Source: a virus. Taken from it: a DNA stretch of 64,000 nt. Positions within the stretch are counted from its first letter, which is position 1, and each line of letters starts with the position of its first letter. Shown piece by piece: positions 1-59,491 of this stretch. Below the pieces are notes generated by a model, which was given only the letters and a program-made list of their open reading frames with translations, was not told where the DNA came from and made no database searches. The stretch lies in IMG/VR virus record IMGVR_UViG_3300042319_002356, positions 1 to 64,000 of that record; one strand, 5' to 3'. The position numbers were made by a program, and so were the translations under genes.

Positions 1-2990
1 AATCGCTCTCACGTATATTCTGTTGCAAGTTCATATACAATCACAATCAGTGGTGATGTAACAGGGTTTAGATTTAATAATACAGGGTCAAGATTAGAAA
101 TACGGGAAATACTAAAATGGGGACCATTACGTGGACTTAACAACTCAAATGCCACAATGTTTTTTGGTTGTAGTAACTTAGTATTAACTGGAGTTACGGA
201 TACTCCTGATTTGGTAGGTATAACTGCAACCACAAGTATGTTCAGAAGTTGTGGTATCACAACTATAAGTGGTGTCAGTGGTTGGGATACTAGTAGTGTG
301 ACTAATATGTCTTTCATGTTTAATGGTGCGACGACATTTAATGACAATATTGGTTCTTGGAATGTTTCAGGTGTTACAGATATGGCATACATGTTTGGTA
401 GTACCTCCCAATTTAATAACGGAGGTAGCCCCTCCATTAGTGGATGGAATGTTAGTAACGTAACTAACATGGAGTCAATGTTCCAATATGGTAACTTTAA
501 CCAAGATATTGGAGCGTGGGATGTTGGTAATGTCACAAACATGCAACAGATGTTCCGACACCAAAGTAATATAGCTGGAACTGGATTTAACAATGGAGGT
601 AGTCCTTCTATTAGTGGATGGAATGTTAGTAATGTTACTAACATGATTGAGATGTTTAGGGGTTCTAAAATTTTCAATCAACCTATTGGAAATTGGAACG
701 TGTCAAACGTAACAAACATGTTTGGCATGTTCTCTACCCAAGGAACTGCTCAACAACCATTTAATCAAAATATTGGTGCTTGGAATGTTTCTGCTGTGAC
801 GGATATGAGACAAATGTTTAGTTCTGCATTATCTTTCAACAACGGAGGAAGTCCATCAATTAGTGGATGGAATGTTAGTAATGTTACACTTATATCCCTA
901 ATGTTCAATAGCGCTAGGGCGTTTAACCAACCGATTGGAAGTTGGGATATGAGAAACAAGTCGGATTTAACAAGAATGTTAGACGATGCTAGATTATTCA
1001 ATCAAGACGTTGGTTCTTGGAATGTTTCAGGTGTCACTAACATGAGTGGATTATTCCGAGACACACATGCTTTTAACAACGCTAGTAGCCCGTCCATAAG
1101 TGGGTGGAACGTTAGTAATGTTACCAATATGAGTAGTATGTTTGGAAATACTGATGGTATAGCCCAACCATTTAATCAACCAATTGGAAGCTGGAATGTA
1201 TCAAGTGTTCAAAACATGTCTGAAATGTTTAATAGATGTACCTCATTCAACCAAGATTTAAGTTCTTGGAATGTTTCGAGTGTCACAAACATGTTTGCCA
1301 TGTTTTATGTTGCGAGCTCATTTAACCAAAACATCTCAAGCTGGAATACGAGTGGTGTTACAAATATGTCTCTTATGTTTGGGTTTGCCAGTTCATTTAA
1401 CCAAAATATTGGTTCTTGGAATACTGGTAACGTAACCTTGATGAATAGTATGTTCCAATCCGCAACCGCATTTAATCAAGATATATCAAATTGGAATACT
1501 GCAAAGGTTACAAACATGGGTAACATGTTTAGTAATGCGGTTGCGTTTAATGGGTATGTCGGGACAAATGGTGATAAGTGGAATGTCTCAGGTGTTACGG
1601 ATATGAGAGGAATGTTCTCAGGAGCTTCAGCCTTCAACAATAGTGGTACTGCGGGTACAAGTACATTTCCTTTAACAGGTTGGAACGTATCAAACGTCAC
1701 AGGTTTAGGAATGGTTTCGATGTTCCAAAATGCGTCTTCATTTAACCAAGACGTATCGAATTGGGATACTAGAAAGATAACAAGTTTAGCTAACATGTTT
1801 AATGGTGCAACATTGTTTAATCAATCAGTTGCAACAAATGGTAATATTTGGAATGTCTCAGGCGTTACCGACATGATAGGTACATTTAGTGGTGCGACTG
1901 GGTATACCAACTTAGGACAACCATTAAGTGGTTGGAGTACAAGTAATGTTACCGACATGTCATTTATGTTCGGTAATTCTGCCTTTAACAAATATATTGG
2001 TAATTGGAATACGTCAAATGTAACAACAATGAGGTCAATGTTTTGGTCTGCAACAACATTTAATAATGAAAGTTTACCATTAAGCGGTTGGAACACGACA
2101 AAAGTGACCACCATGAGGTCAATGTTCAATACCGCACAACAATTTAATCAGTATGTTGGTACGAATGGAACAAATTGGGTAACATCGGCAGTTACTGATA
2201 TGCAATTTATGTTTGCAAGTGCGACTAACTTTAATAATGGTGAGGCCGCAGGTCTAAGTAATTTACCACTTACAGGTTGGAATACAAGTAATGTTACTTT
2301 GATGAACAATATGTTTATTGTTGCCCAATCATTTAACCAAAACATCTCAACTTGGGATACTGCTAAAGTGACTAACATGGCCTCCATGTTTAATAATGCA
2401 TTTTTGTTTAACCAAAACGTTGGTAATTGGAACGTATCGGGCGTAACAAATATGCAAGTGATGTTTAATTTTGCAAACTCATTTAATAACGCAGGTAGTC
2501 CTTCCATTAGTGGGTGGAACACTAGTAATGTTACAACCATGTTCCAAATGTTTGCGGCAACACCCTTCAATCAACCACTTACTAATTGGGACACATTAAA
2601 GTTAACTGGTGCAAGTGCGGTCAATCAGATGTTCTATTCTGCAACATCATTCAACCAAAATTTGACAACTACTGGGAATTTTTGGAATATGTCGGGAGCG
2701 ACAAGTCTTAATAGTATGTTTGGTTTGGCCACCTCGTTTAACGGGGATGTTTCTGGGTGGGACACTAGAAAAGTAACCGATTTTATTTCCACGTTTTTTA
2801 GTGCTACGTCATTTAACCAAAATTTAAGTTCATGGGTAATTACAGGAGGTACAAATGGTAGTTTAAATCAATTTTTAAGTTATTCAAATCTATCTCAGAC
2901 AAATTATGATAATACGTTAATTGGATGGTCTGGACAAAACCCTACTAGTAAAACTATAGGTGTTATTGGATTAGTATATTCACCATCACC
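1..2990 (+). repeat. BspA/DUF285-type protein repeat array
   Basis: About 30 degenerate coding repeats. Each contains WNVS(N/G)VTNM followed by MF, a small-residue run and FNQ.IG.W. The DNA copies differ by many synonymous changes, so the array is an old, protein-selected one rather than a recent DNA duplication. Confidence 0.85.
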
Positions 2991-5900
2991 TTGTCCTGGA
3001 GGTGATGCAAGAACTTATCTAGACGTACCTAGAGGTTGGACATTTGTCGGTGACATTGCTGGTTGTTGTGGAACATGTACTCCGACACCAACTCCTACAA
3101 TAACTATTACTCCGAGTATTACTCCAACAATTACAGTTACCCCGAGTATTACTCCTACAGTTACCCCAACAATTACAGTTACCCCAACAATTACAGTTAC
3201 CCCGAGTATTACACCTACCATTACACTGACAATTACCCCTTCGGTTACCGTATCACCATCTTCACCAGTCACTGAATGCCGATGTATAACATTTGTTAAT
3301 AATTCTGCGGGACCTGGTTTTACCCCATATACTTATTATGATTGTAGTGGTAATTTAATTGGTGCGGCAGCAACCCCTGGAGAAATATTTAGTGTGTGTG
3401 GTAGTAATCCTGTAGTTAGTTCAGTTGAATTATTATACTCAATAGGACAACCATGTTTTGGAGGAGAATGTGTTCCGGGTGATGGATGTCTTTGTACTAC
3501 AATCATAATATCTGAGGTTGATTTAAATAACTCAGATACTGATGCGGTTTATGTGTCGTATTTTAACTGTCACGATGGATTAGTTGAATCTTCAGCAATT
3601 ACTGTTGCTGGTGAATATTATATATGTAACAATGCAGTATCAACATTTAATTTATATGGTATTGGTTTACTACTTGATTACACTAATGAAGGAATACCTT
3701 ATAATAATAAAGAAAATCCTAATTTCTTCTATTCTGAATATAGTATTAGTGTTAGTTCTTGTTTACTTGATGAAGACTGTGACCCTTGTTTTAATGAGTT
3801 GTCAATTGATTTTGAATATGTTTGTCAAGAATTATTTCCCACACCAACTCCTTCACCTTCGGCTTCTCCAATAATTGAGGCAAATTGTACCGTATTTTTT
3901 AATGAGGGTACTGATGTTTACACCTATGATTTATTAACAAATACCTCAACATTGTTAACAGTACCTGGTGCTGGTCCATCATACATAGGGGATATTGCAA
4001 ATACCACTACAAAATTGTGGTTAATGAATAGTAATAGTGTTATGGAATGGGATATTACTTTATCTCCATTTAGTGCGACATATAATAGAACTATTACATT
4101 CCCTAATTTTTATGGACCAGGATTATTTGCTATTAACAATACTACTTTATTGGCCGTTGATTCAACCACAACCCCAAATACAGTTGTTACTTTAGATATT
4201 ACCACTACTACCGCAGTACAAACCGCACTATTTACTATGTTACCTGGCAGGAGTGTTGCTGGAGACATCTTAAAAACAAATAATAATAAGATATTAATTA
4301 CTAATTATGGTGTCGGCTCAAATGCTTACATCACCCAATATGATATATCAGGCAGTGTTGAATTTGATAAAAATATAACATCTAGCTCACAGTCCCCTTA
4401 TGGTATGTTTGTGAAGAATGGGCAGATTTATATAATGGATTTTTTTGGTGGTGTATTTCTTATTCAGACATCTTCCCCATATAATTTAACATTAGTTGCG
4501 TCATCAGGACATTACCCTTATGGTGCGTCACAAGACCCTGGATGTGCAAATATTAGTTTTCAGCCGAATGTAACCCCAACACCTACACCCACACCTTCCA
4601 TTACTCCAACTAATACATTACCACCTAATTTAGCGGTTAGTTCTTACTTCTATTGTGATTTAATTACACCTACTCCTACTGTTACTATTAGTCAAACACC
4701 ATTCCAAACCCAAACCCCAACTTTAACACCTGGGTTAAGTCCAAGTGTCACACCTACAAATACTTTAACTCCATTCTTTACTCAGACACCTTCCGTCACT
4801 CCTGACTGTATCAATATTAGTTTTGAATATGTTTGTGAGTTCTTAACACCAACACCTACCCCAACTGTTACCATTACTCCGTTCTTAACTCCTTCAGTTA
4901 CTCCGACAAATACTGTACCCCCAAACATTAATGGTAGTTTCTATTTTTATTGTGATTTAATTACACCTACCCCTACTGTTAGTGTGACTCAAACTCCACT
5001 CCAAACACAGACATCTACCCCCACACCAGGATTGAGTCCATCTGTTACACCAACTAATACTTTAACTCCTTTTTTTACACAGACCCCGAGTCAAACTCCA
5101 AATTGTATTACAATTAGTTTTGAATATGTTTGTGAAAATTTAACGCCTACACCTACCCCGACTGTAACATTAACTCCATTTATTACTCAATCAGTTACTC
5201 CTACGAATACCTTACCACCAAACTTGGGAGTGTCAAGTTATTTCTATTGTAATTTGGCAACCCCAACAGTGACTCCATCACTATCAATTTCAGTTACCCC
5301 AACAATAACACCATCTGTAACTGCGAATGCTTGTTTCTGTTATGATGTAATTGTTACACAACACGATATTGATAGCGCAAGTGGTAACACAAATCCTGTT
5401 GCAAATGGGAGAGTTACGGTTATCTATTATGATTGTGATGAAATTCCAAGACCATTTTCAGTAACTTCTGCTGGTATATACACAATTTGTAATAAAGCAT
5501 CAGAAACATTTGACAACTTAGGTATTGAAGTATTCATTACCTACACACAAAATAATGAGGGTTATAATAATTTAGATGACCCACAATTATTTACTAGCCA
5601 GTACATTACGGAGTATTCATCTTGTACTCAAGATGGTGATTGTGTCCCAATTACCCAAACTCCGACACCTACAGCAACTCTGACACCAGGTTTAAGTTTG
5701 ACCCCAACGGTAACCCCAACCCTAACCCCGTTTTTTACCCCAAGTCCATCACCTGATTGTTCCGGAGTTGCTATATCATTTGAGTATGTTTGTGAGTTCT
5801 TAACCCCGACTCCAACCCCCACTCAGACATTAACCCCGTTCTTAACTCCTTCGGTTACTCCGACACAAAGTATTCCTGTTAATTTAGGTGTTAGCTCTTA

Positions 5901-8900
5901 TTTCTATTGTGATTTAGTAAGTCCAACTCCTACGGTTAGTGTGACTGAAACTCCATTCCAAACACAAACTCCAACCCTAACACCTGGTTTAAGTCCAAGT
6001 GTCACACCTACGAACACATTAACACCATTCTTTACCCAAACACCAAGCCAGACCTCTGATTGTATTAATATTAGTTTTGAGTATGTTTGTGAGTTTTTAA
6101 CTCCAACCCCCACTCCAACTCAGACATTAACCCCGTTCTTAACTCCTTCGGTTACTCCGACACAAAGTTTACCTGTAAATTTAGGTGTTAGCTCTTATTT
6201 CTATTGTGATTTAGTTACATTGACCCCAACAGTCAGTGTGACTGAAACACCTTTTCAAACTCCAACACCAACTCTTACACCAGGATTAAGTCCGAGTGTT
6301 ACTCCGACAAATACTTTAACACCTTTCTTCACACAGACCCCAAGCCAGACCCCTGATTGTATTAACATTAGTTTTGAATATGTTTGTGAGTTCTTAACAC
6401 CAACACCTACGACAACTGTAACATTAACTCCATTCCTGACACCATCGGTAACTCCCACAAATACATTACCACCAAACTTGGCGGTTAGTGTTTATATGTA
6501 TTGTGAGTTAGTTACCCCAACTCAAACTCCGACTCAAACTGTTACACCATCTATTACCCCATCAATTACCCCAACCATTAGTGTTACACCAACAATTCCT
6601 GATGATTGTATTGTTATTGATTTTGAGTTTATTTGTGAGTTTTTAACTCCAACACCTACCCCTACACAGACACTAACTCCGTTCTTAACGCCATCTATTA
6701 CTCCGACAAATACATTACCGCCTAATTTGGCGGTTAGTTCTTACTTCTATTGTGATTTGGTAAGTCCTACACCTACTGTTAGTGTAACTGAAACGCCTTT
6801 CCAAACTCCGACACCAACTCTTACACCTGGTTTAAGTCCAAGTGTTACTCCGACAAATACTTTAACTCCATTCTTTACCCAAACACCAAGCCAGACCCCT
6901 GATTGTATTAATATTAGTTTTGAATATGTTTGTAGTGATTTGACCCCAACCCCAACTGCAACTGTAACGGTAACTCCGTTCTTGACCCCATCTCCAACCC
7001 CTACCGTTACAGTTGCTCCTTTCTTAGCGGTTAGTTCTTATTTTTATTGTGTTAACGTAACACTAACCCCAACAGTAACACCATTCTTAACACAGACACC
7101 GACATTAACACCATTTGCGACTCCTTCAGTTACTCCTAACTGTATTGTTATTAATTTTGAATACGTTTGTAGTAATTTAACTCCTACTCCGACTCCAACT
7201 CAGACCTTAACTCCGTTCTTAACACCATCTATTACTCCGACAAATACCTTACCACCAAACTTGGGAGTGTCAAGTTATTTCTATTGTATTAATGTTACAT
7301 TAACCCCAACATTGACACCATTCTTAACTCCAACTCCAACATTAACACCATTTGCAACACCATCAGTTACACCTGATTGTATTAACATTGTCTTTGAGTA
7401 TGTTTGTGATAATTTAACTCCAACTCCAACACCAACTCAAACTTTAACACCGTTCTTAACACAAACCCCCACACCTACAACGACATTGGCTCCTAATTTA
7501 GGTGTTAGTTCTTACTTCTATTGTGATTTGGTTACTCCTACGGTAACCCCTACACCAACTCAAACTTTACCTGACATTTATTGGTTTAGTGGATGTTGTG
7601 AAATTAATAACATTACGTTTGGTTTATATAACTTACCAGTATCTGTAATTGTTGGTGAAGTTTACTACGTTGAAATTGAGGGAGTATTCTCGGGATGCTC
7701 AACAGTAATTACAACAGGAACCGGAGGAATTTATGGAAATTCAATATTGGTAAATTATACTAATTGTGTTGAATGTATTACTAACAATCCTTGTATCCCT
7801 ATTCCAAGTGTAACACCAACCCCAACGGTGACTCAAACTCCAAATTGTATTACAATTAGTTTTGAATATGTTTGTGAAAATTTAACACCTACGCCTACCC
7901 CTACTCAGACATTAACTCCATTCTTAACTCAGACTCCTACACCTACAACAACATTGGCTCCTAATTTAGGAGTTAGTTCTTATTTCTATTGTGATTTAGT
8001 TACTCCGACTCCAACTTTAACACCATTCTTTACATTAACTCCAACACCAACTCCGACAGTTACACTGACTTCATTCTTAACTCCAACACCAACTCTGACA
8101 CAGTTCTTTACCCCTACACCAACAATAACACCATCAGTTACACCTGATTGTATTACAATAAACTTTGAGTATGTTTGTAGTAATTTAACACCAACTCCAA
8201 CACCAACTCAAACATTAACACCATTTTTAACACCATCAATAACACCAACGGAGACACTACCGCCATATTTGAACGTATCTGTTTATTTATATTGTGAGTT
8301 AGTTACCCCAACACCAACACCTAATATTATGACACCAACACCAACACAAACGGCTACGGTGACCCCAACGTTGACTCCTGGACTAACAGGATGTGGGGTT
8401 CACCAGTATTGTGTCCATTTAGGTAATCCTGATTACGACGGAACATATGTAAACTCGGGATACTATAACGGACATTCTTATTATCTAAACTCAGGAACAA
8501 ATAGTGTAATTTATTACAATAACACTACTTGGTGTGTATCGGATACACTTGGAGGAACTTGTATCCTCTATGGTTCAGTTCCGCCGACATCACCTTGTCC
8601 AAGTTTCTCAAACACTGTATTCAGTGTAGGAGCTTGTCCAACACCTACGCCGACCCCAACTCCATCGGTGACACCTACGTTAACCCCGACTGTGTCACCT
8701 ACTGCGACGTTGACCCCAACTCCGGCAGTTACGACATCTCCAACTACTACTCCGACAGTTACCCCAACAGGGACTAATGCTTGTATTGGTGTTCAAGCAT
8801 ATTCAATTGTTGAAGATGTTCCAAATCCGTCTCCGACTCCTACGGTTACTCCAACGTCAACGGTTGGTAAAGTCTCCTTTAATGGTGAAGGTGTTTTTGT

Positions 8901-8931
8901 GGTGTTAAACGATACTTTTGTATGTAATTAA
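1..8931 (+). CDS. giant BspA-repeat / Thr-Pro-repeat tail adhesin (5' partial)
   Basis: Probably a tail fibre or receptor-contact protein. The frame is open from base 1, so the gene begins upstream of the window and the ATG at 157 is internal; at least 2976 residues are visible. Bases 1-2990 encode tandem BspA/DUF285-type repeats of about 25-40 residues (pattern MF..A..FNQ.I..WN.S.VT.M). Next come a Thr-Pro stalk (3079-3268), two small Cys domains (3277-3790), a propeller-like segment (3880-4560), and then repeated units in which [10 protein letters not shown] and VSSYFYCDL modules alternate with TPTPT stalks (4570-8340). A C-terminal Cys/Tyr domain (8390-8630) and a further stalk end the protein. 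BspA repeats are known from surface proteins that bind host factors; the phage role is inferred from the virion context. The minus-strand ORFs opposite the repeats are shadows. Confidence 0.85.
4570..8340 (+). repeat. tandem 79-99 residue Cys-module plus Thr-Pro stalk repeats
   Basis: About ten units begin near a DC(I/V).I.FEYVC motif (near 4805, 5102, 5755, 6057, 6356, 6605, 6899, 7138, 7375, 7845 and 8146). Many are spaced about 297 nt apart and others about 237-250 nt. Each unit holds two Cys-bearing beta-strand-like motifs separated by Thr-Pro stalks. The unit could change copy number by recombination. Confidence 0.8.
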
Positions 8932-8975: not shown

Positions 8976-9188
8976 ATGAAACAAATAACGGTTACAAATT
9001 TCATAGGTACATCTCCATTTGAGGTATATCTATGCGACCCAGGTTTTAATAGTTGTATTTGGATAACCCAAAGCACTTTTGTTCCTGTGGTATTTACCGT
9101 TCCACCTCCATATGATTTAAATACATCATTTGGAGTTAGAATTATAGATAGTAATAATTGCACAGTTGACCAAGTATTAACATTATGA
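8976..9188 (+). CDS. small virion-associated protein, unknown
   Basis: A 70-residue protein with beta-strand-like composition and three Cys, lying between the giant adhesin and the next Cys/Thr-Pro protein. Its stop overlaps the next start (ATGA). No family is recognised. Its position suggests a cofactor or small structural partner of the adjacent tail proteins. No signal peptide or membrane segment is visible. Confidence 0.65.
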   Translation: MKQITVTNFIGTSPFEVYLCDPGFNSCIWITQSTFVPVVFTVPPPYDLNTSFGVRIIDSNNCTVDQVLTL

Positions 9189-10648
9189 GTTGTATAACGA
9201 TACAGTTAGGATTTTCAAGTACACAGATAAACGCTTGTAAAGGATATTATCAGTCAGTATCCACATATTATGCTGATTTTTTAAATTTTTCGCAAGCGAC
9301 TAAAATATATTCAGATTCTTCATGTACAACATTTGCGACGCAAGGGTACTATTCTAATGGGGTGGTAGTTAGATTTTGGAACCCTACTTTAAAACAGTTA
9401 TTAAAGTCAAATTCATGTCAGTTACCAATGGTATTCACACCATGTTGTGACGGGATTCCAAATCAAACATTTTTGGTTAGTAATGCTAATTTTGTTGACC
9501 CAACATTAGGTGCACCATATTCGGTTAGTTTTAGTGGGAATTGTTACCAATATACAAATACTTTAAGTAGTGATAGTCCTATTGCAACATTTACAAATTT
9601 CCAATATAGAGATTGTCAAACTTGTTTAGAAACATATCCATGTAACATAACGCCAACACCGACCCCAAGTCCAACACCAACTCCATCGGCGGTGCCATCA
9701 TCAATCTATTTGAAATCATGTTGTGATGATACCTATTATTATTCGTTAGGTAATATTTCTAGACCTGTTGGTGATACTATTACGATTAAACCTTACAATT
9801 ATTGTTATACTGTTGTTTTTGATAGTGGAAATTTTCCGGCAAATCTCCCATCAATAAATGACTATCAATGGGAAAAAGTTACGGGGTGTTTAGATGTTAA
9901 ATGTCAATCTTGCATGCCTGTACCAACCGCAAGTGCGGCTTATGTTCCGCCTGGTAAAACAGACCCTTGTTTTTATTCAACAATCTTACCGTTAGGTGTT
10001 GTATGTAATGTTACACAACCTTTGGTAGGACAACCGTTTACAGGAATATTGGATTTGGAGATTACAGGGGGAACTCCCCCATATTACGTTGTGTGGGTAC
10101 CGGGAGGAGTCGGAAAAACCATATACTACCAAGGACCTGGAGTTTATACTGCGACTGTAACCGACGTATGGAAAGATTTTACTGCAACGACGACATGTGT
10201 ATTAGAAGAAGAATTAAATTGTGGATTTGTTCCAAATGCGACCGAATATTTTATCCCAACCCCAACACCGACTCCTACACCTACTATGACAACAACTCCT
10301 ACACCTACACCGTCAATAACTCCAACAATGACAATAACACCAAGTAATACTCCAGCGGTTTCACCTAGTCCAACGGCTAGTGTAACACCAAGTATTACAC
10401 CTTCAGTTACTCCGTCAATTACTCCAAGTAGTTCGTCAAGTAATTGTGGTTGTTATACGATAACAAATACCAATAGTTATAATACATTAGGAATTAAGTA
10501 TTACAACTGTAGTGGTGTGATAATAAATTTAGCCATCCCTCCAAACTCTTTCGGTAAGTTCTGTGGAAATGGAGTGACAACTGCGGGACAAGGAACATTT
10601 ATTGGACCTTGTGATGGAACTTGTACTGGAACATACCCAAATACTTAA
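9185..10648 (+). CDS. Cys- and Thr-Pro-rich tail/adhesin protein
   Basis: A 487-residue protein built like the C-terminal part of the giant upstream protein: Cys-paired beta domains (residues 1-155, 175-245 and 255-350), TPTPTPS stalks near residues 157-172 and 357-415, and a C-terminal CGCYTITN...YYNCSG domain that resembles the Cys domains at 3277-3480 and 5326-5645. It starts at an ATGA overlap with the upstream gene. It is likely a tail-fibre or virion-surface protein that shares modules with its neighbour. No enzymatic motif is seen. Confidence 0.7.
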   Translation: MSCITIQLGFSSTQINACKGYYQSVSTYYADFLNFSQATKIYSDSSCTTFATQGYYSNGVVVRFWNPTLKQLLKSNSCQLPMVFTPCCDGIPNQTFLVSNANFVDPTLGAPYSVSFSGNCYQYTNTLSSDSPIATFTNFQYRDCQTCLETYPCNITPTPTPSPTPTPSAVPSSIYLKSCCDDTYYYSLGNISRPVGDTITIKPYNYCYTVVFDSGNFPANLPSINDYQWEKVTGCLDVKCQSCMPVPTASAAYVPPGKTDPCFYSTILPLGVVCNVTQPLVGQPFTGILDLEITGGTPPYYVVWVPGGVGKTIYYQGPGVYTATVTDVWKDFTATTTCVLEEELNCGFVPNATEYFIPTPTPTPTPTMTTTPTPTPSITPTMTITPSNTPAVSPSPTASVTPSITPSVTPSITPSSSSSNCGCYTITNTNSYNTLGIKYYNCSGVIINLAIPPNSFGKFCGNGVTTAGQGTFIGPCDGTCTGTYPNT

Positions 10649-10652
10649 AAAA

Positions 10653-12032
10653 ATGAGATATTTTATAGTTACATTAGATAGTTTTAATTCTGAAGGTCCG
10701 TATACCGTTTATTACAATACAATTAATGGTGGGACAATAGCAGGAATTTTGGATTCAAGTAATTTGGCGGAAAATTTGAATCCATTTGATTTGGTTGCTG
10801 GTATAACTGTTTCGGTTCCTGATGACGTTACGAAATTAATAGTTTACGACACTAGTATCTGCCAAGAATATAAAGAAATACAAATAACCGCAATTGAACC
10901 CACCTATGAAGATTTTTGTGTTACAATTATTGGAACACCATTTACTCAAGGGATGCTACCTGAAATAACCCAGATACTATTTTCGTACGATGGGACGATT
11001 GAAAATGAAAAACCAGTATATGCTGATTCGGGAGATACGTATACAGTTTATTGGTCAGGTAATAGTTGGCATTTGTTAGGATTTGAAGTTGGTGGTGGTT
11101 CTATAACATCAACCAATTCAACAGATACTCCTATAAATGGATGGACAATCAATGGGCCTTTAAGTGGGTTCTATACTATTTCCGCTAATTTGGGAGAATG
11201 TTTATTATCTAATAGAGCTACTTTGAGAGTTACATCCTTTCCCCCAACTTGTTCTTCATTAAGTGACGGACAAATAACTTTATCATTATTGGGAGGGACT
11301 CCACCATATTCATATTCGTTAGACAATATCATATATGTTACAGATGGACCTACCCACACGTTTTTCAACTTAGCTCAGAGTGATTATAATGTGTATGCTC
11401 AAGATACTAATGGGACATATGTTGACTTTACAAGTTTAATTGCCCAATCCCAACAAACTACTTATACTGCAATATTTCAAAACATGAATCCACAACAAGG
11501 ATTGAATTTTGTTTCTTGTAATGGGGATTTAGCATTGTATAACACAAATGGAACAATATCCTTTAGTCCAAATATTCCAAGTAGTATCTTATCGTTAAAC
11601 TCAACATTAAAAGTTGATATTGATTTTTCCTATGAACAACCAAATAACGCCACGTTAGGACCATTTAGTATAACTGCGTCAAATGGTAATAATACTTATA
11701 CATTATCTCAATATGTTACCACACCAATGAGTGCTGGAGGGATAGTTTGTGGTAATCCGTTATACCGTAGCTATAGTGGAATGACGGGATTCTCAACGAC
11801 AATTCCATTTATCCAAAGTAATGGACAAATAACTTTCGGTGTTAATTTTTATTTAGACATGTCAAATTGTCAGGTTGATAGTAAATTTAATTGTCAGACA
11901 ATTGCTAAAATAAGAGTTAGGGCTTATTTGGATAATATTGGTAATTCAAATTCAAGAGCTTGTACTCAATATACGAGTAGGACATATGATAGTGGTGTGA
12001 TAACAATTAATTGCTCAAATAAAAGATGTTAA
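10653..12032 (+). CDS. virion/tail protein with Ig-like beta domains, unknown
   Basis: A 459-residue protein. I chose the ATG at 10653, four bases after the previous stop, rather than the in-frame alternative at 10602 that would overlap the neighbour by 47 bases. The sequence is rich in Ser, Thr, Asn and Gly. A segment near residues 190-260 (ATLRVTSFPPTC, GGTPPYSYSLDN) looks like the SprB/PKD-type beta repeats of Bacteroidota surface proteins. It lies in the structural block and probably belongs to the tail fibre assembly. No catalytic motif is seen. Confidence 0.65.
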   Translation: MRYFIVTLDSFNSEGPYTVYYNTINGGTIAGILDSSNLAENLNPFDLVAGITVSVPDDVTKLIVYDTSICQEYKEIQITAIEPTYEDFCVTIIGTPFTQGMLPEITQILFSYDGTIENEKPVYADSGDTYTVYWSGNSWHLLGFEVGGGSITSTNSTDTPINGWTINGPLSGFYTISANLGECLLSNRATLRVTSFPPTCSSLSDGQITLSLLGGTPPYSYSLDNIIYVTDGPTHTFFNLAQSDYNVYAQDTNGTYVDFTSLIAQSQQTTYTAIFQNMNPQQGLNFVSCNGDLALYNTNGTISFSPNIPSSILSLNSTLKVDIDFSYEQPNNATLGPFSITASNGNNTYTLSQYVTTPMSAGGIVCGNPLYRSYSGMTGFSTTIPFIQSNGQITFGVNFYLDMSNCQVDSKFNCQTIAKIRVRAYLDNIGNSNSRACTQYTSRTYDSGVITINCSNKRC

Positions 12033-12047: not shown

Positions 12048-14444
12048 ATGGCTTACATAAATAAAACTAGTTCGGGACTTTTAAATACAAAATTAACTGA
12101 TGTTGGTAGAAGAAAACTGGCTCAGGGAAGATTCAATATACAATATTTTCAGATAGGTGATTCAGAGGTTACTTATAGTGCGATTACTAATTGGGATAGT
12201 ACTAATAATAATGTTTTAGAACCATCATTTAATGCTCAGAATGACACAGGGTCTCCACAATCAAACAAACAACATGTTAAATATCCTTTTTATGTTTTAG
12301 GTAATAAAGGTAATACATTTGGATTACCAATATTGGAGCCAGCCATTTACCCTGTATACAACCTAACAGACCCGAGAGGTTTTTTCAATGGGACTGACGG
12401 TAATTGGTTTGCTAAGACTGATTCTCCTTGTGATTATACACAACCAGAACCACCAAAATGTCCAGATTATTATGTTAAAACAAGTGACTATGTTGTGGAT
12501 ACTTGTTTATTATGTGGTAATAATTACATTGATTTGATTTACTCTCCTTGTAATCCTGTAACAACGACTACGACTTCTCCAATTATAACTACAACGACAA
12601 CTACTACAAACATTGGATGTACGACTATATGTCAAAATAGTGGTTTAACTTGTGATATTCAAGTTGGAGATATTTTGATGATATATTTTGACCAAGAGGA
12701 CACGTGCGGTGGAATTTCAAGACAGTTCCCAATTTTAACATACAAAGTCCAAGGGATTGACGGATTAAAAATACAATTAGATAGACCAACACCTTATTAT
12801 GCTGGTTCGTCATGTGCTCCTATAACAACTACAACGACGATGTTAATGGGGGAGACAATGACAACAACAACTACAACTCAATATGGTAATTGTTGTACAT
12901 ATGCTAGAGTGTTGGTATATCCATCGGGAATGACCCCTTACTATGATTCAATTACGCCTTTACAGTATCTCACACCACAAAATGTTGGGTTTGGTAATTA
13001 TAACGTTCCTGGTGTTATCACACCCCCAATATGGAATATGAATATTCCTTGGTCTGAAAATCCTGCAGGGTTAATATCAGTTATTAGTGAGTCTTATGAA
13101 TATTTTGGTTCACAGAGTTATATTGGTTCTAAAGAATATTTTGGATATCAGACAAATTCAGGTCAAACATTTAATGTTGATTCTGATAATATGAATCAAA
13201 TTAGTGATACATATTTTTATAACTCTTTAGGTGATAAAGTTTACGTAGAACCAAGTTCACAAAAATGTATATCAATTGTGCATTATACAAATAATGCGTT
13301 GGATAACATCTACGGTGAAAAATTTGCGATGGAACCATTCAACAGTAATTTTTTAGACAACACTGGAGCTGCCAAAAATTTCAAAGTAACCATTCCTTGG
13401 TTGATGTGGCATAAAAACCCAAATCCTGTTATGGGGGAATCTTTTTATGTTGACCCTGACGGATATGAGTTATTATCGGTAAAATATATGCAGTCTTCGG
13501 TGAGTTCAGAAATGAATAACCCTGGGTTAAGATATTTCCATTTGTATGACACCCACCAAACCCAAAGTGGGTTACCAAGTAGAGTTGGTAAGGTATTTCC
13601 TGATTTAAAACAAATCATATTTGATGATGAAGAAATAGTTGCAGCAATGTCTTACAAATCAAATCGTAACTGGACATTACCTGCACCAAGATTAAATCTA
13701 TTAACACCAAATACTTGTAGCAATGATGGTAATAGTAATGGTATATTAAGTGCATCTACCGAATATATGTATATTACATATAGATTTGATAATATAACAA
13801 TGACAAACGCTCTTCATTGTAATTATTATACAAAAATACAAGGACCAACAATTTGTACACCATCTAGTTCTCAAAATGTGATTGTCCAATTTGGCAATGA
13901 GTTTGCCTTTTTACAATCTTGTTGTTTGAACGGAGCCCAATTAAAAGAGTTTAAGATTTTAGCTCAAAAAGTTACAGGTGATACAAGACCTGACCCTACA
14001 AAATGGAAAGTTATTAATTTTACCGACCAATTAATTGCGTCAATGGATTTTAACGGCAATATAACTGCGAGTGGAATGACGGCTCAAACATTCATAGTTA
14101 ATTATGATTTATACCAATCTGCACCTTTTTATAATTTAGCTGATTATATTGATTTACCAACTATCACCGAACCTGACGAATTAAACTTTGGTGATGAGTT
14201 TTTCTTTTATGGTAATGTTGAAACGGATATAATGGCGACAATATATGAATTTAAGGCAATTTGTAATTTACCTAAGAATTCTTTCAGTAATACCAAAAAT
14301 CCTACATGGAATGATTCGTTTACACCATATATTAGTGAAATTGGGCTTTACGATGAAGATAAAGACCTTATTATTATATCTAAACTACAATCACCACAAG
14401 TAAGACAAGGGGTGCAACAATACGTAGTTCAATTAGATTTTTAA
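12048..14444 (+). CDS. large virion protein with poly-Thr linkers
   Basis: A 798-residue protein. The N-terminus (AYINKTSSGLLNTKLTDVGR) is an ordered domain of about 170 residues. Two poly-Thr linkers follow (near residues 168-188 and 260-280), then a long beta-rich region with mixed polar composition. Poly-Thr linkers of this type are common in structural proteins of large phages. It follows the tail-fibre genes and has its own class B promoter, so it is probably a baseplate or tail-associated structural protein. The exact role is not identifiable from sequence alone. Confidence 0.65.
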   Translation: MAYINKTSSGLLNTKLTDVGRRKLAQGRFNIQYFQIGDSEVTYSAITNWDSTNNNVLEPSFNAQNDTGSPQSNKQHVKYPFYVLGNKGNTFGLPILEPAIYPVYNLTDPRGFFNGTDGNWFAKTDSPCDYTQPEPPKCPDYYVKTSDYVVDTCLLCGNNYIDLIYSPCNPVTTTTTSPIITTTTTTTNIGCTTICQNSGLTCDIQVGDILMIYFDQEDTCGGISRQFPILTYKVQGIDGLKIQLDRPTPYYAGSSCAPITTTTTMLMGETMTTTTTTQYGNCCTYARVLVYPSGMTPYYDSITPLQYLTPQNVGFGNYNVPGVITPPIWNMNIPWSENPAGLISVISESYEYFGSQSYIGSKEYFGYQTNSGQTFNVDSDNMNQISDTYFYNSLGDKVYVEPSSQKCISIVHYTNNALDNIYGEKFAMEPFNSNFLDNTGAAKNFKVTIPWLMWHKNPNPVMGESFYVDPDGYELLSVKYMQSSVSSEMNNPGLRYFHLYDTHQTQSGLPSRVGKVFPDLKQIIFDDEEIVAAMSYKSNRNWTLPAPRLNLLTPNTCSNDGNSNGILSASTEYMYITYRFDNITMTNALHCNYYTKIQGPTICTPSSSQNVIVQFGNEFAFLQSCCLNGAQLKEFKILAQKVTGDTRPDPTKWKVINFTDQLIASMDFNGNITASGMTAQTFIVNYDLYQSAPFYNLADYIDLPTITEPDELNFGDEFFFYGNVETDIMATIYEFKAICNLPKNSFSNTKNPTWNDSFTPYISEIGLYDEDKDLIIISKLQSPQVRQGVQQYVVQLDF

Positions 14445-57622: not shown

Positions 57623-59491
57623 ATGGGAAAAATAATTGGTATTGATTTGGGAACAACGAATTCGTGTGTTGCCGTAATGGAAGGTTCAGAACCTGTCGTA
57701 ATTACAAACAGTGAAGGTAAAAGAACGACTCCTTCAATCATTGGATTTGCCAGTGATGGTGATAGAAAGATTGGTGACCCTGCAAAACGTCAGGCGGTTA
57801 CTAATCCTGAAAAAACAATTCACTCAATTAAAAGATTTATGGGAACTAGTTACACTGAAAGTAAAGGTGAAGTAAAACGTGTTCCTTATAAAGTTGTTAA
57901 GGGTACTGGTGATACTCCTCGTGTTCAGATTGATGACCGTAAGTTTTCACCACAAGAAATTTCAGCAATGGTTCTTCAGAAGATGAAACAAACTGCTGAG
58001 GATTATTTGGGTACTGAAGTTACTGAAGCGGTCATCACAGTACCAGCATACTTCAACGACGCTCAACGTCAGGCTACAAAAGAAGCTGGTGAGATTGCAG
58101 GTCTTACAGTTAAACGTATTATTAACGAACCAACTGCGGCCGCATTAGCTTACGGACTTGATAAGAAAGGTTCGGATATGAAAGTTGTTGTATTTGACTG
58201 TGGTGGTGGAACTCACGACGTATCAATCTTGGAACTTGGAGATGGTGTGTTTGAAGTATTAGCGACTGATGGTGACACACATTTGGGTGGTGATGACTTT
58301 GATAATGCAATCATTGACTGGTTGGTTAAAGAATTCCAAGATGAGAATGGATTGGATTTGTCAAAAGACCCAATGGCGTTACAACGTCTTCGTGAAGGGG
58401 CTGAAAAGGCTAAGATTGAATTGTCCTCAACTTCTTCAACTGAAATCAACCTACCATACATTATGCCGGTTGATGGTGTTCCAAAACACTTGGTGAGAAC
58501 TTTATCTAAAGCAAAATTTGAACAACTTGTTGATAAATTGGTCCAAAGAACAATTGAACCATGTAAGAAGGCTATGGAGAACGCAAACCTTACAGTTGGT
58601 GAAATTGATGAAATTATTTTGGTTGGAGGTTCAACTCGTATTCCGGCAATCCAAGAAGCGGTTAAGAAATTCTTTGGTAAGGAACCATCAAAGGGTGTTA
58701 ATCCTGATGAAGTAGTTGCTCTTGGTGCGGCAATTCAAGGTGGAGTATTGGCCGGTGATGTGAAAGATGTATTGTTGTTGGACGTAACTCCACTTTCATT
58801 AGGTATTGAAACAATGGGAGGAGTATTTACAAAGTTGATTGAAGCTAACACGACAATCCCAACCAAGAAATCACAGATATTCTCAACCGCAGTTGATAAC
58901 CAACCATCAGTTGAAATCCACGTATTACAAGGTGAAAGAGCGATGGCTAAAGATAACAGAACCATTGGACGTTTCCACTTGGATGGATTACCACCGGCAA
59001 TGAGAGGAGTTCCACAAATTGAAGTTGTTTTTGACATTGATGCTAACGGTATTATTAATGTGTCAGCAATTGACAAAGGAACTGACAAACAACAAAATAT
59101 TCGTATTGAAGCGTCATCAGGACTTTCAAAAGAAGAAATTGAAAGAATGAAACAAGAAGCTGAAATGAATGCTGAGGCGGACAAGAAAGTTAAAGAAGAT
59201 GCTGAAACAATTAATCAAGCTGACTCAATGATTTTCCAAATTGAAAAATCTTTGAAGGATATTGAAGATAAATTGACGGACGAACAAAAATCAGAAATTA
59301 ATTCTTCATTACAAGAGTTGAAAGATGCTCATTCTACAAAGGATGTTGATAAGATTAAAACCTCAATGGATAAAGTTAACACAACGTTCCAAAGTATCTC
59401 CTCTGACCTATACTCCCAAGGTTCAGGAGAAACAAATGAACAAACAGACCGAGAGGTTAATGATGTTGACTTTGAAGAAGTTAAAGGTTAA
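57623..59491 (+). CDS. dnaK: DnaK (Hsp70) chaperone
   Basis: A 622-residue complete Hsp70. ATPase motifs: [16 protein letters not shown] (phosphate 1), [12 protein letters not shown] (phosphate 2) and [13 protein letters not shown] (adenosine). The linker ([15 protein letters not shown]) and substrate-binding domain are intact, and the C-terminus DVDFEEVKG resembles the host-type tail. Higher use of preferred codons than the neighbours suggests strong expression. With the phage DnaJ at 29948 it could fold virion proteins or protect them under heat stress. Few phages carry a full DnaK. Confidence 0.95.

Follow-up and report, generated by a model that had tools for sequence, protein, structure and literature searches.

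The window analysed here is a 64,000-nucleotide stretch of the IMG/VR virus record IMGVR_UViG_3300042319_002356, and it begins within ORF1 (1..8931, + strand), whose 2,976 open codons are cut short by the contig end. A second contig, IMGVR_UViG_3300042356_001388, matches the window with 100% identity across 18.9 kb and extends it upstream by 473 nt, which is where the first 44 codons of ORF1 are located; on this twin contig the full-length gene has a GTG start (L010:342) and encodes 3,020 amino acids, with (V/M)SEFISRWQTTGSSQ as its completed N-terminus. The giant adhesin of more than 2970 residues in the original prediction is thus confirmed in size. Inspection of the completed N-terminus by eye reveals no obvious signal peptide, lipoprotein or Sec-like, and ORF1 has no recognised virion-anchor or trimerisation domain. 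Three further genes follow on the same strand: ORF2 (9185..10648, +), a Cys/Thr-Pro adhesin-type protein that is fused to ORF3 in most relatives; ORF3 (10602..12032, +), which carries an SprB repeat and whose true start is probably further in; and ORF4 (12048..14444, +), a conserved lineage marker with at least 430 matching relatives in IMG/VR, for which we found no match in PDB or, with the low-complexity filter on, among the INPHARED phage isolates.

ORF1 has a non-chance architecture of PARCEL repeats, a propeller and two kinds of half-module. A PKD/WGDG-type cap (1..264, +), found also before the PARCEL repeats of relatives L020, L029, L034 and L049, is followed by 31 repeats of about 25 residues each (265..2814, +; residues 89–938), all scoring above the 95th percentile of shuffles, and then by a C-terminal cap (2815..3075, +), assigned from the sequence and from comparable caps in relatives. 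The tandem 25-residue repeats exceed the curated cut-offs of both Pfam DUF285 (E 9.6e-237; 771 bits against a cut-off of 25) and NCBIfam TIGR02167, 'PARCEL repeat-containing surface protein' (E 3.5e-78; 256 bits against a cut-off of 30), and ORF1 is therefore a member of the PARCEL family. About 30 BspA repeats had been predicted, which is right as to number but not as to type, as these are not Tannerella-type BspA leucine-rich repeats; LRR_5/BspA-type models have no match in ORF1 in either Pfam (E <= 1e-3, only DUF285 reported) or NCBIfam. The binding of host surface factors that was ascribed to BspA repeats is not supported here, and we know of no binding function shown for PARCEL repeats. 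Nor is the eukaryotic-surface style as striking for a phage as it had seemed, since PARCEL/DUF285 is found in 114 INPHARED phage records and has been reported in ORF 200 of phage vB_VhaM_pir03 (PMC7765460). The PARCEL DNA of ORF1 contains nine palindromes of arm 7 against 2.2 expected (0/100) and ten of arm 6 against 5.5 (12/100), relative to a control that ignores unit copying.

A Thr-Pro linker with tandem DNA periods of 18–60 nt (3076..3270, +) and two Cys domains of the B and C types (3271..3786, +), with homologous domains in L032/L033 and L056–L059, lead to the first A half-module (3790..3837, +), which is separated from its B partner by a beta-propeller domain (3868..4569, +; residues about 1290–1523). 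The propeller-like domain of the original prediction holds up well: AlphaFold2 yields a confident all-beta model (pLDDT 88, pTM 0.87), and the best Foldseek matches of this predicted propeller in PDB are the YWTD propellers of LRP6/LDLR (E 2.6e-8, TM about 0.5–0.6), although there is no Pfam match to the YWTD (LDL_recept_b) family and no PDB sequence match up to E 1. Propellers are also present in L015, L032/L033, L069 and L056–L059, those of relatives being 29–43% identical to that of ORF1.

The Thr-Pro/Cys array (4570..8379, +) starts with the B half-module that pairs with the first A, and contains 11 complete 54-residue A-B units with variable B-to-A connectors, into which an A-type Cys domain (5317..5664, +) and a D-type Cys domain (7567..7809, +) are inserted. 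The former has a confident AlphaFold2 model (pLDDT 85) and no match to its fold in PDB. The array is followed by an E-type Cys domain (..WCVSDTLGG..; 8380..8646, +), the most widespread domain among the adhesins of the lineage, and by a C-terminal Thr-Pro linker with terminal half-modules and the stop codon (8647..8931, +). What had been described as about ten Cys/Thr-Pro modules resolves into 12 A (CIxIsFEYVC) and 12 B half-modules in strict alternation (the last B scored by eye). The A-to-B spacing is 38 residues in all 11 undivided units, the twelfth pair being that divided by the propeller, whereas the B-to-A connectors vary from 41 to 63; residues 1524–2923 are 48% Thr, Pro and Ser. The 11 complete units align internally without gaps at 83% mean column identity, and silent sites between modules are diverged to near saturation; the combination argues for purifying selection on the array. 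No second A-B array was found elsewhere, only the window virus and its identical twin carrying this form, and region 4000–8931 has no INPHARED match by tblastn with the low-complexity filter on. The three further hits, L120–L122, proved to be other proteins with plain Thr-Pro linkers.

It had also been proposed that the length varies by recombination between repeats, and here the array's expandability is partly supported. There are six exact inter-module repeats of at least 30 nt in ORF1 against 0.1 expected, linker indels distinguish relatives L017 and L019, a fresh tandem duplication is seen in relatives, and the positional counterpart in L062 is only 756 residues long with about three half-modules. 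However, several pairs of relatives show no linker change, silent divergence between modules is nearly saturated, and PARCEL length is constant in 41 of 43 cyanophage records.

The loci of relatives share a common plan, with variable adhesin genes followed by ORF2/3, ORF4 and RuvC. Among 79 loci, ORF4 is present in 79, RuvC in 78 and an ORF2-like gene in 67, and in 78 of the 79 a conserved ORF4–RuvC block lies downstream of the variable adhesin cluster. Each locus has several adhesin genes, and domains have been reshuffled among them: of 46 lineage adhesins, 8 have SprB and 5 have DUF285, and the PARCEL repeats, N-terminal in ORF1, are C-terminal and behind a Thr-Pro stalk in L020, L029, L034 and L049. 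Occupants of the ORF1-equivalent position are Thr-Pro adhesins, a tail-spike homologue (L083; phrog_4636, E 6.6e-28) or collagen-like tail-fibre-type proteins (as in L077), and by these positional equivalents ORF1 lies in a tail-fibre locus. Downstream of ORF4 are replication and recombination genes, with no recognisable baseplate genes. A T4-type Gp23 is encoded by all six relatives larger than 240 kb and is absent from the five shorter records, one of them the fragmentary 90.8 kb record of the window. The scarcity of SD-like sites (1 of 45 genes), the SprB repeats and the only GTDB match to ORF4, in one Bacteroidota MAG, are indirect signs that the host is probably a member of the Bacteroidota. 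The recently described 'moraphages' (PMC12619734), jumbo phages of this phylum, were considered as a possible assignment.

It seems likely that ORF1 encodes a long, multi-domain and modular receptor-binding fibre attached to the virion of an uncultured jumbo phage, one that probably infects Bacteroidota. The modular phage fibre or adhesin originally envisaged is favoured by the fibre-type locus counterparts and by the positions of PARCEL genes in cultured phages, which in Aeromonas D6 and Pseudomonas OBP adjoin virion or baseplate genes and in cyanophage ACG-2014f lie near tail-collar genes. In such a fibre the PARCEL solenoid and the propeller would be interchangeable binding heads, and the Cys-rich domains and short strand-like half-modules on extended Thr-Pro connectors would make up a flexible stalk that keeps the heads off the particle; the A-B unit would then be the fixed structural element, and the B-to-A connector the site of length change and whole-domain insertion.

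The presence of several unrelated adhesive domains in one chain and of multiple adhesin genes per locus, together with the lack of a link to a baseplate gene within the window, would also suit a decorative fibre on the capsid, neck or tail whose target is particles, mucus or exopolysaccharide and not the infection receptor; we think this unlikely given the tail-spike homologue and collagen-like proteins at the equivalent locus and the company of baseplate and tail genes kept by PARCEL genes in cultured phages. Mollicute PARCEL proteins are surface lipoproteins (PMC2996958), and the ORF1 protein could by analogy be produced by the infected cell for display or secretion, serving superinfection exclusion or aggregation, without being part of the virion, but this is improbable in view of its N-terminus, in which no signal is seen by eye, and its conserved tail-fibre-type locus. 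We regard it as highly improbable that the arrays are mainly mobile, self-propagating coding repeats in a protein of little function; although PARCELs have been described as horizontally exchanged and associated with mobile elements (PMC2996958), and are punctate in this lineage, all 31 repeats are intact and in frame inside a 3,020-codon ORF, and the A-B units are under purifying selection. Repeat arrays are prone to misassembly and ORF1 reaches the contig end, but an artefact is scarcely credible when a second contig, possibly from the same sample, agrees base for base and the copies are distinguishable because they differ at most silent sites. Counting against the favoured reading, a virion-attached receptor-binding fibre, are the absence of a recognised anchor or trimerisation domain, the replication and recombination genes in place of baseplate genes after ORF4, and the position of the PARCEL head, which is N-terminal in ORF1 and C-terminal in relatives, so that either end might be the attached one.

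For the receptor-binding fibre, a more speculative and rather unlikely reading is that the A-B array constitutes a kind of fibre-stalk module not described before. Rigid 54-residue elements, each with the same 38-residue distance from strand to strand, would alternate with Thr-Pro connectors able to change length in frame and to accept whole domains, and the lineage would tune reach and swap heads by intragenic recombination; the Thr-Pro segments might further be glycosylated by the adjacent phage-encoded DxD-motif protein (phrog_4417). Proteins of phrog_4417 have an invariant H-D-x-D motif, may resemble plant hydroxyproline/serine glycosyltransferases, and in Enterococcus phiFL phages are encoded by genes that immediately follow that of the major tail protein. 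Mucin-like glycosylation by this gene was rejected, as searches of Pfam, NCBIfam and PDB gave no match that would name the family, and among relatives the gene goes with fewer, not more, Thr-Pro repeats (the median of the locus maximum is 6 where it is present and 26 where it is absent). Within this lineage modular fibres are common, and the sole feature that looks new is the expanded array with its fixed spacing; we found no description of Thr-Pro phage fibres in the literature searched. A widespread uncultured jumbo-phage lineage may build host-binding fibres by shuffling PARCEL, propeller, SprB, delta-60 and Cys domains into a conserved locus on Thr-Pro stalks, and the spacings in ORF1 give a concrete and testable rule for which part of the stalk is structural and which is free in length. 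The findings also correct the taking of 'BspA' in phages as a sign of eukaryotic-host binding.

Among the closest known counterparts are the Thr-Pro/Cys adhesins of ORF4-bearing uncultured jumbo phages (IMG/VR loci L013–L091), which share with ORF1 the locus, the Cys-domain types, Thr-Pro linkers and, following the E-type Cys domain, half-modules of strand-like type, although those inspected (L017, L019, L029 and L062) have about three to four half-modules compared with 24 in ORF1. SprB-containing Bacteroidota adhesins have repeats in common with ORF3 and eight of the lineage adhesins but not with ORF1, and the LDLR-LRP6 YWTD propellers resemble that of ORF1 in fold only (9–15% identity). The Tannerella BspA (LRR_5-type) adhesins, with which the name is shared in public annotation, are likewise repeat surface proteins but of a different repeat type. 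The PARCEL proteins of vB_VhaM_pir03, Aeromonas D3, D6 and LAh10, Pseudomonas OBP and Synechococcus ACG-2014f resemble ORF1 in having 25-residue tandem repeats and in lying near structural genes; in ORF1, unlike in these phages, the repeats form the N-terminal third, and the propeller and Thr-Pro/Cys array continue the chain.

ORF1 (1–8931, + strand) is truncated on its 5′ side by the contig end, the source virus record being linear and 90,767 bases long, with bases 1–64000 in the window. A twin contig, IMGVR_UViG_3300042356_001388 (L010), is identical to the window along 18.9 kb and has a further 473 nt ahead of the window's start; there ORF1 begins with a GTG at L010:342, giving a complete protein of 3,020 residues with the N-terminus (V/M)SEFISRWQTTGSSQTITLPYESTGTYSGTIDWGDG, in which no signal peptide was seen by eye. 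This start region is supported by a WGDG-type cap, which precedes the PARCEL repeats in ORF1 and also in four relatives. Seven bases ahead of this GTG, in a different frame, an ATG opens an 8-codon ORF (MAGVGIYK; L010:335–361) that stops just within ORF1; it could be either a leader or a sign of a frame change where ORF1 begins. The gene adjoining ORF1 (L010:3–287, upstream of the window; full-length at L062:3607–4581 in a related locus) encodes a phrog_4417 protein with an invariant H-D-x-D motif. Members of this family are found in 74 INPHARED records, and in the Enterococcus phiFL phages the gene immediately follows that for the major tail protein. Neither Pfam nor NCBIfam names the family, which is a possible tail glycosyltransferase.

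Thr, Pro and Ser make up 48% of residues 1524–2923 of ORF1, and charged residues 5%. Two short, strand-like half-modules, A and B, follow each other in strict alternation. There are 12 of each; the last B was scored by eye, the regular expression having missed it and counted another twice. The A-to-B distance is exactly 38 residues in 11 pairs (ten by regular expression, the last by unit alignment), and in the first pair the propeller lies between A and B. Alignment of the 11 complete units needs no internal gaps and gives a mean column identity of 83%, bearing out the 'about ten' Cys/Thr-Pro modules first reported. From B to the following A, five distances are 61 residues and the next four are 45, 41, 41 and 63; each of the two remaining connectors carries one inserted Cys domain. 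We infer from these spacings that A-B is a structural unit, whereas the length of the B-to-A connector is unconstrained. Searching IMG/VR with the unit alignment recovered the same form of array only in L010, and we found neither a description nor a second example of such fixed spacing with variable connectors; three weaker matches are ordinary Thr-Pro linkers of another protein.

The original prediction that the array is expandable holds in part. Six exact inter-module DNA repeats of 30–54 nt are present in ORF1 against 0.10 expected (synonymous codons shuffled 200 times, with no more than one repeat in any shuffle), which means that sequence has been exchanged or copied between modules. Between the related loci L017 and L019, linkers show indels of 11, 6, 20, 2, 2 and 16 residues, and one linker of L017 that is shorter in L019 contains an exact repeat of 63 nt, offset by 66 nt. 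In L044 an imperfect duplication of 654 nt covers one entire domain together with a linker; the Thr-Pro adhesin that contains it (L044:4670–7423) also has an apparently cupredoxin-like domain by eye. In L062, where the upstream gene (56%) and ORF2–ORF4 all have homologues, the protein encoded at the ORF1 position is 756 aa long with about three half-modules. However, most ORF1 module pairs differ at 0.42–0.71 of fourfold-degenerate sites (lowest 0.33), near the approximately 0.56–0.67 of unrelated codons; the majority of copies are therefore old, their similarity being maintained by protein-level selection. No linker indels are seen in several relative pairs at 75–85% identity (L038/L043, and the ORF2/3-type proteins of L041, L044, L049 and L051), and lengths are identical across L021–L027 save for a shorter reading frame in L026. 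The PARCEL stretch is likewise equal in length in 41 of 43 records of cyanophage ACG-2014f, the two exceptions (+7 nt and +73 nt) both having the gene split in two. Expansion has therefore taken place over evolutionary time, mainly in the linkers; rapid, phase-like length variation is not supported by these comparisons among relatives, ORF1 itself being comparable only with its identical twin.

ORF4 (12048–14444) has at least 430 relatives in IMG/VR, on contigs of up to 322 kb among 80 fetched, and all six tested relatives longer than 240 kb encode the T4-type capsid protein Gp23. Gene order in 79 loci runs from variable adhesin genes through an ORF2/ORF3-type protein and ORF4 to a RuvC-like resolvase (78 of the 79), usually followed by a primase and exonuclease. 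ORF2 and ORF3 (9185–12032) are separate in the window, as in L062 and L054, and form one protein of about 700–950 aa in most relatives. Among 46 lineage adhesins, SprB repeats occur in eight, DUF285 in five and DUF5122 propeller repeats in two, together with laminin-G-like and other domains; the Cys domain types of ORF1 recur, and PARCEL repeats are C-terminal behind a Thr-Pro stalk in relatives but N-terminal in ORF1, so domains change order. The adhesin position is occupied by a tail-spike homologue in L083 (phrog_4636, E 6.6e-28) and by collagen-like tail-fibre-type proteins in L077 (a repetitive match). ORF1 is most simply explained as a tail-fibre-type adhesin, and the proposed modular fibre is likely. 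One relative's adhesin cluster includes a sulfotransferase (L046:2599–3465; PF13469, E 1.2e-14) that possibly decorates fibres or glycans, and the ORF at 57623–59491, matching phrog_22485 (unknown function) over its full length (E 1.5e-254), encodes a well-conserved phage protein without a known role. SprB repeats are typical of Bacteroidota; this, the scarcity of SD-like sites (one of 45 genes) and the one ORF4 relative matched in GTDB, at 30% identity in a Bacteroidota MAG (L115, JAKQEK010000152.1), point indirectly to a Bacteroidota host. That MAG contig may contain a sister-lineage phage and a clue to the host.

Domains that align to residues ~1290–1523 are present in four kinds of relative, at 29–43% identity. 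The AlphaFold2 model (mean pLDDT 88, pTM 0.87) supports the propeller fold originally suspected, its best PDB matches by Foldseek being the YWTD beta-propellers of LRP6/LDLR (E 2.6e-8; TM about 0.5–0.6, identity 9–15%). The profile had no match among PDB sequences; the resemblance is one of fold, and membership of the YWTD family is unsupported. The propeller also occurs in a relative's adhesin (L033:5432–9964), with Thr-Pro linkers and six stretches of delta-60 repeats (TIGR02608).

The earlier observation of repeats, propeller and modules is thus confirmed in nearly every detail, but its BspA/eukaryotic reading is wrong. Residues 89–938 contain 31 of them (about 30 had been reported) at a spacing of 24–34 residues, each scoring above the 95th percentile of shuffles. 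They are not BspA repeats proper: they match DUF285 in Pfam (E 9.6e-237, ten domain stretches) and TIGR02167, 'PARCEL repeat-containing surface protein', in NCBIfam (E 3.5e-78, above cut-off), and no LRR_5/BspA-type family is among those reported for ORF1. Our analyses gave no indication that PARCEL repeats bind eukaryotic-type receptors, nor is their eukaryotic-surface style striking for a phage, as the PARCEL region is matched in 114 INPHARED records (tblastn). PARCELs were defined in 2010 as 25-residue repeats exchanged horizontally (PMC2996958), and vB_VhaM_pir03 has a PARCEL gene of 19 kb (PMC7765460). The PARCEL gene of Aeromonas D6 and of Pseudomonas OBP is flanked by genes for a virion structural protein and for baseplate assembly, and in ACG-2014f tail-collar genes are nearby. 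PARCEL repeats in phages are therefore not unusual and already known; what looks new in ORF1 is the A-B array of fixed spacing with variable connectors.
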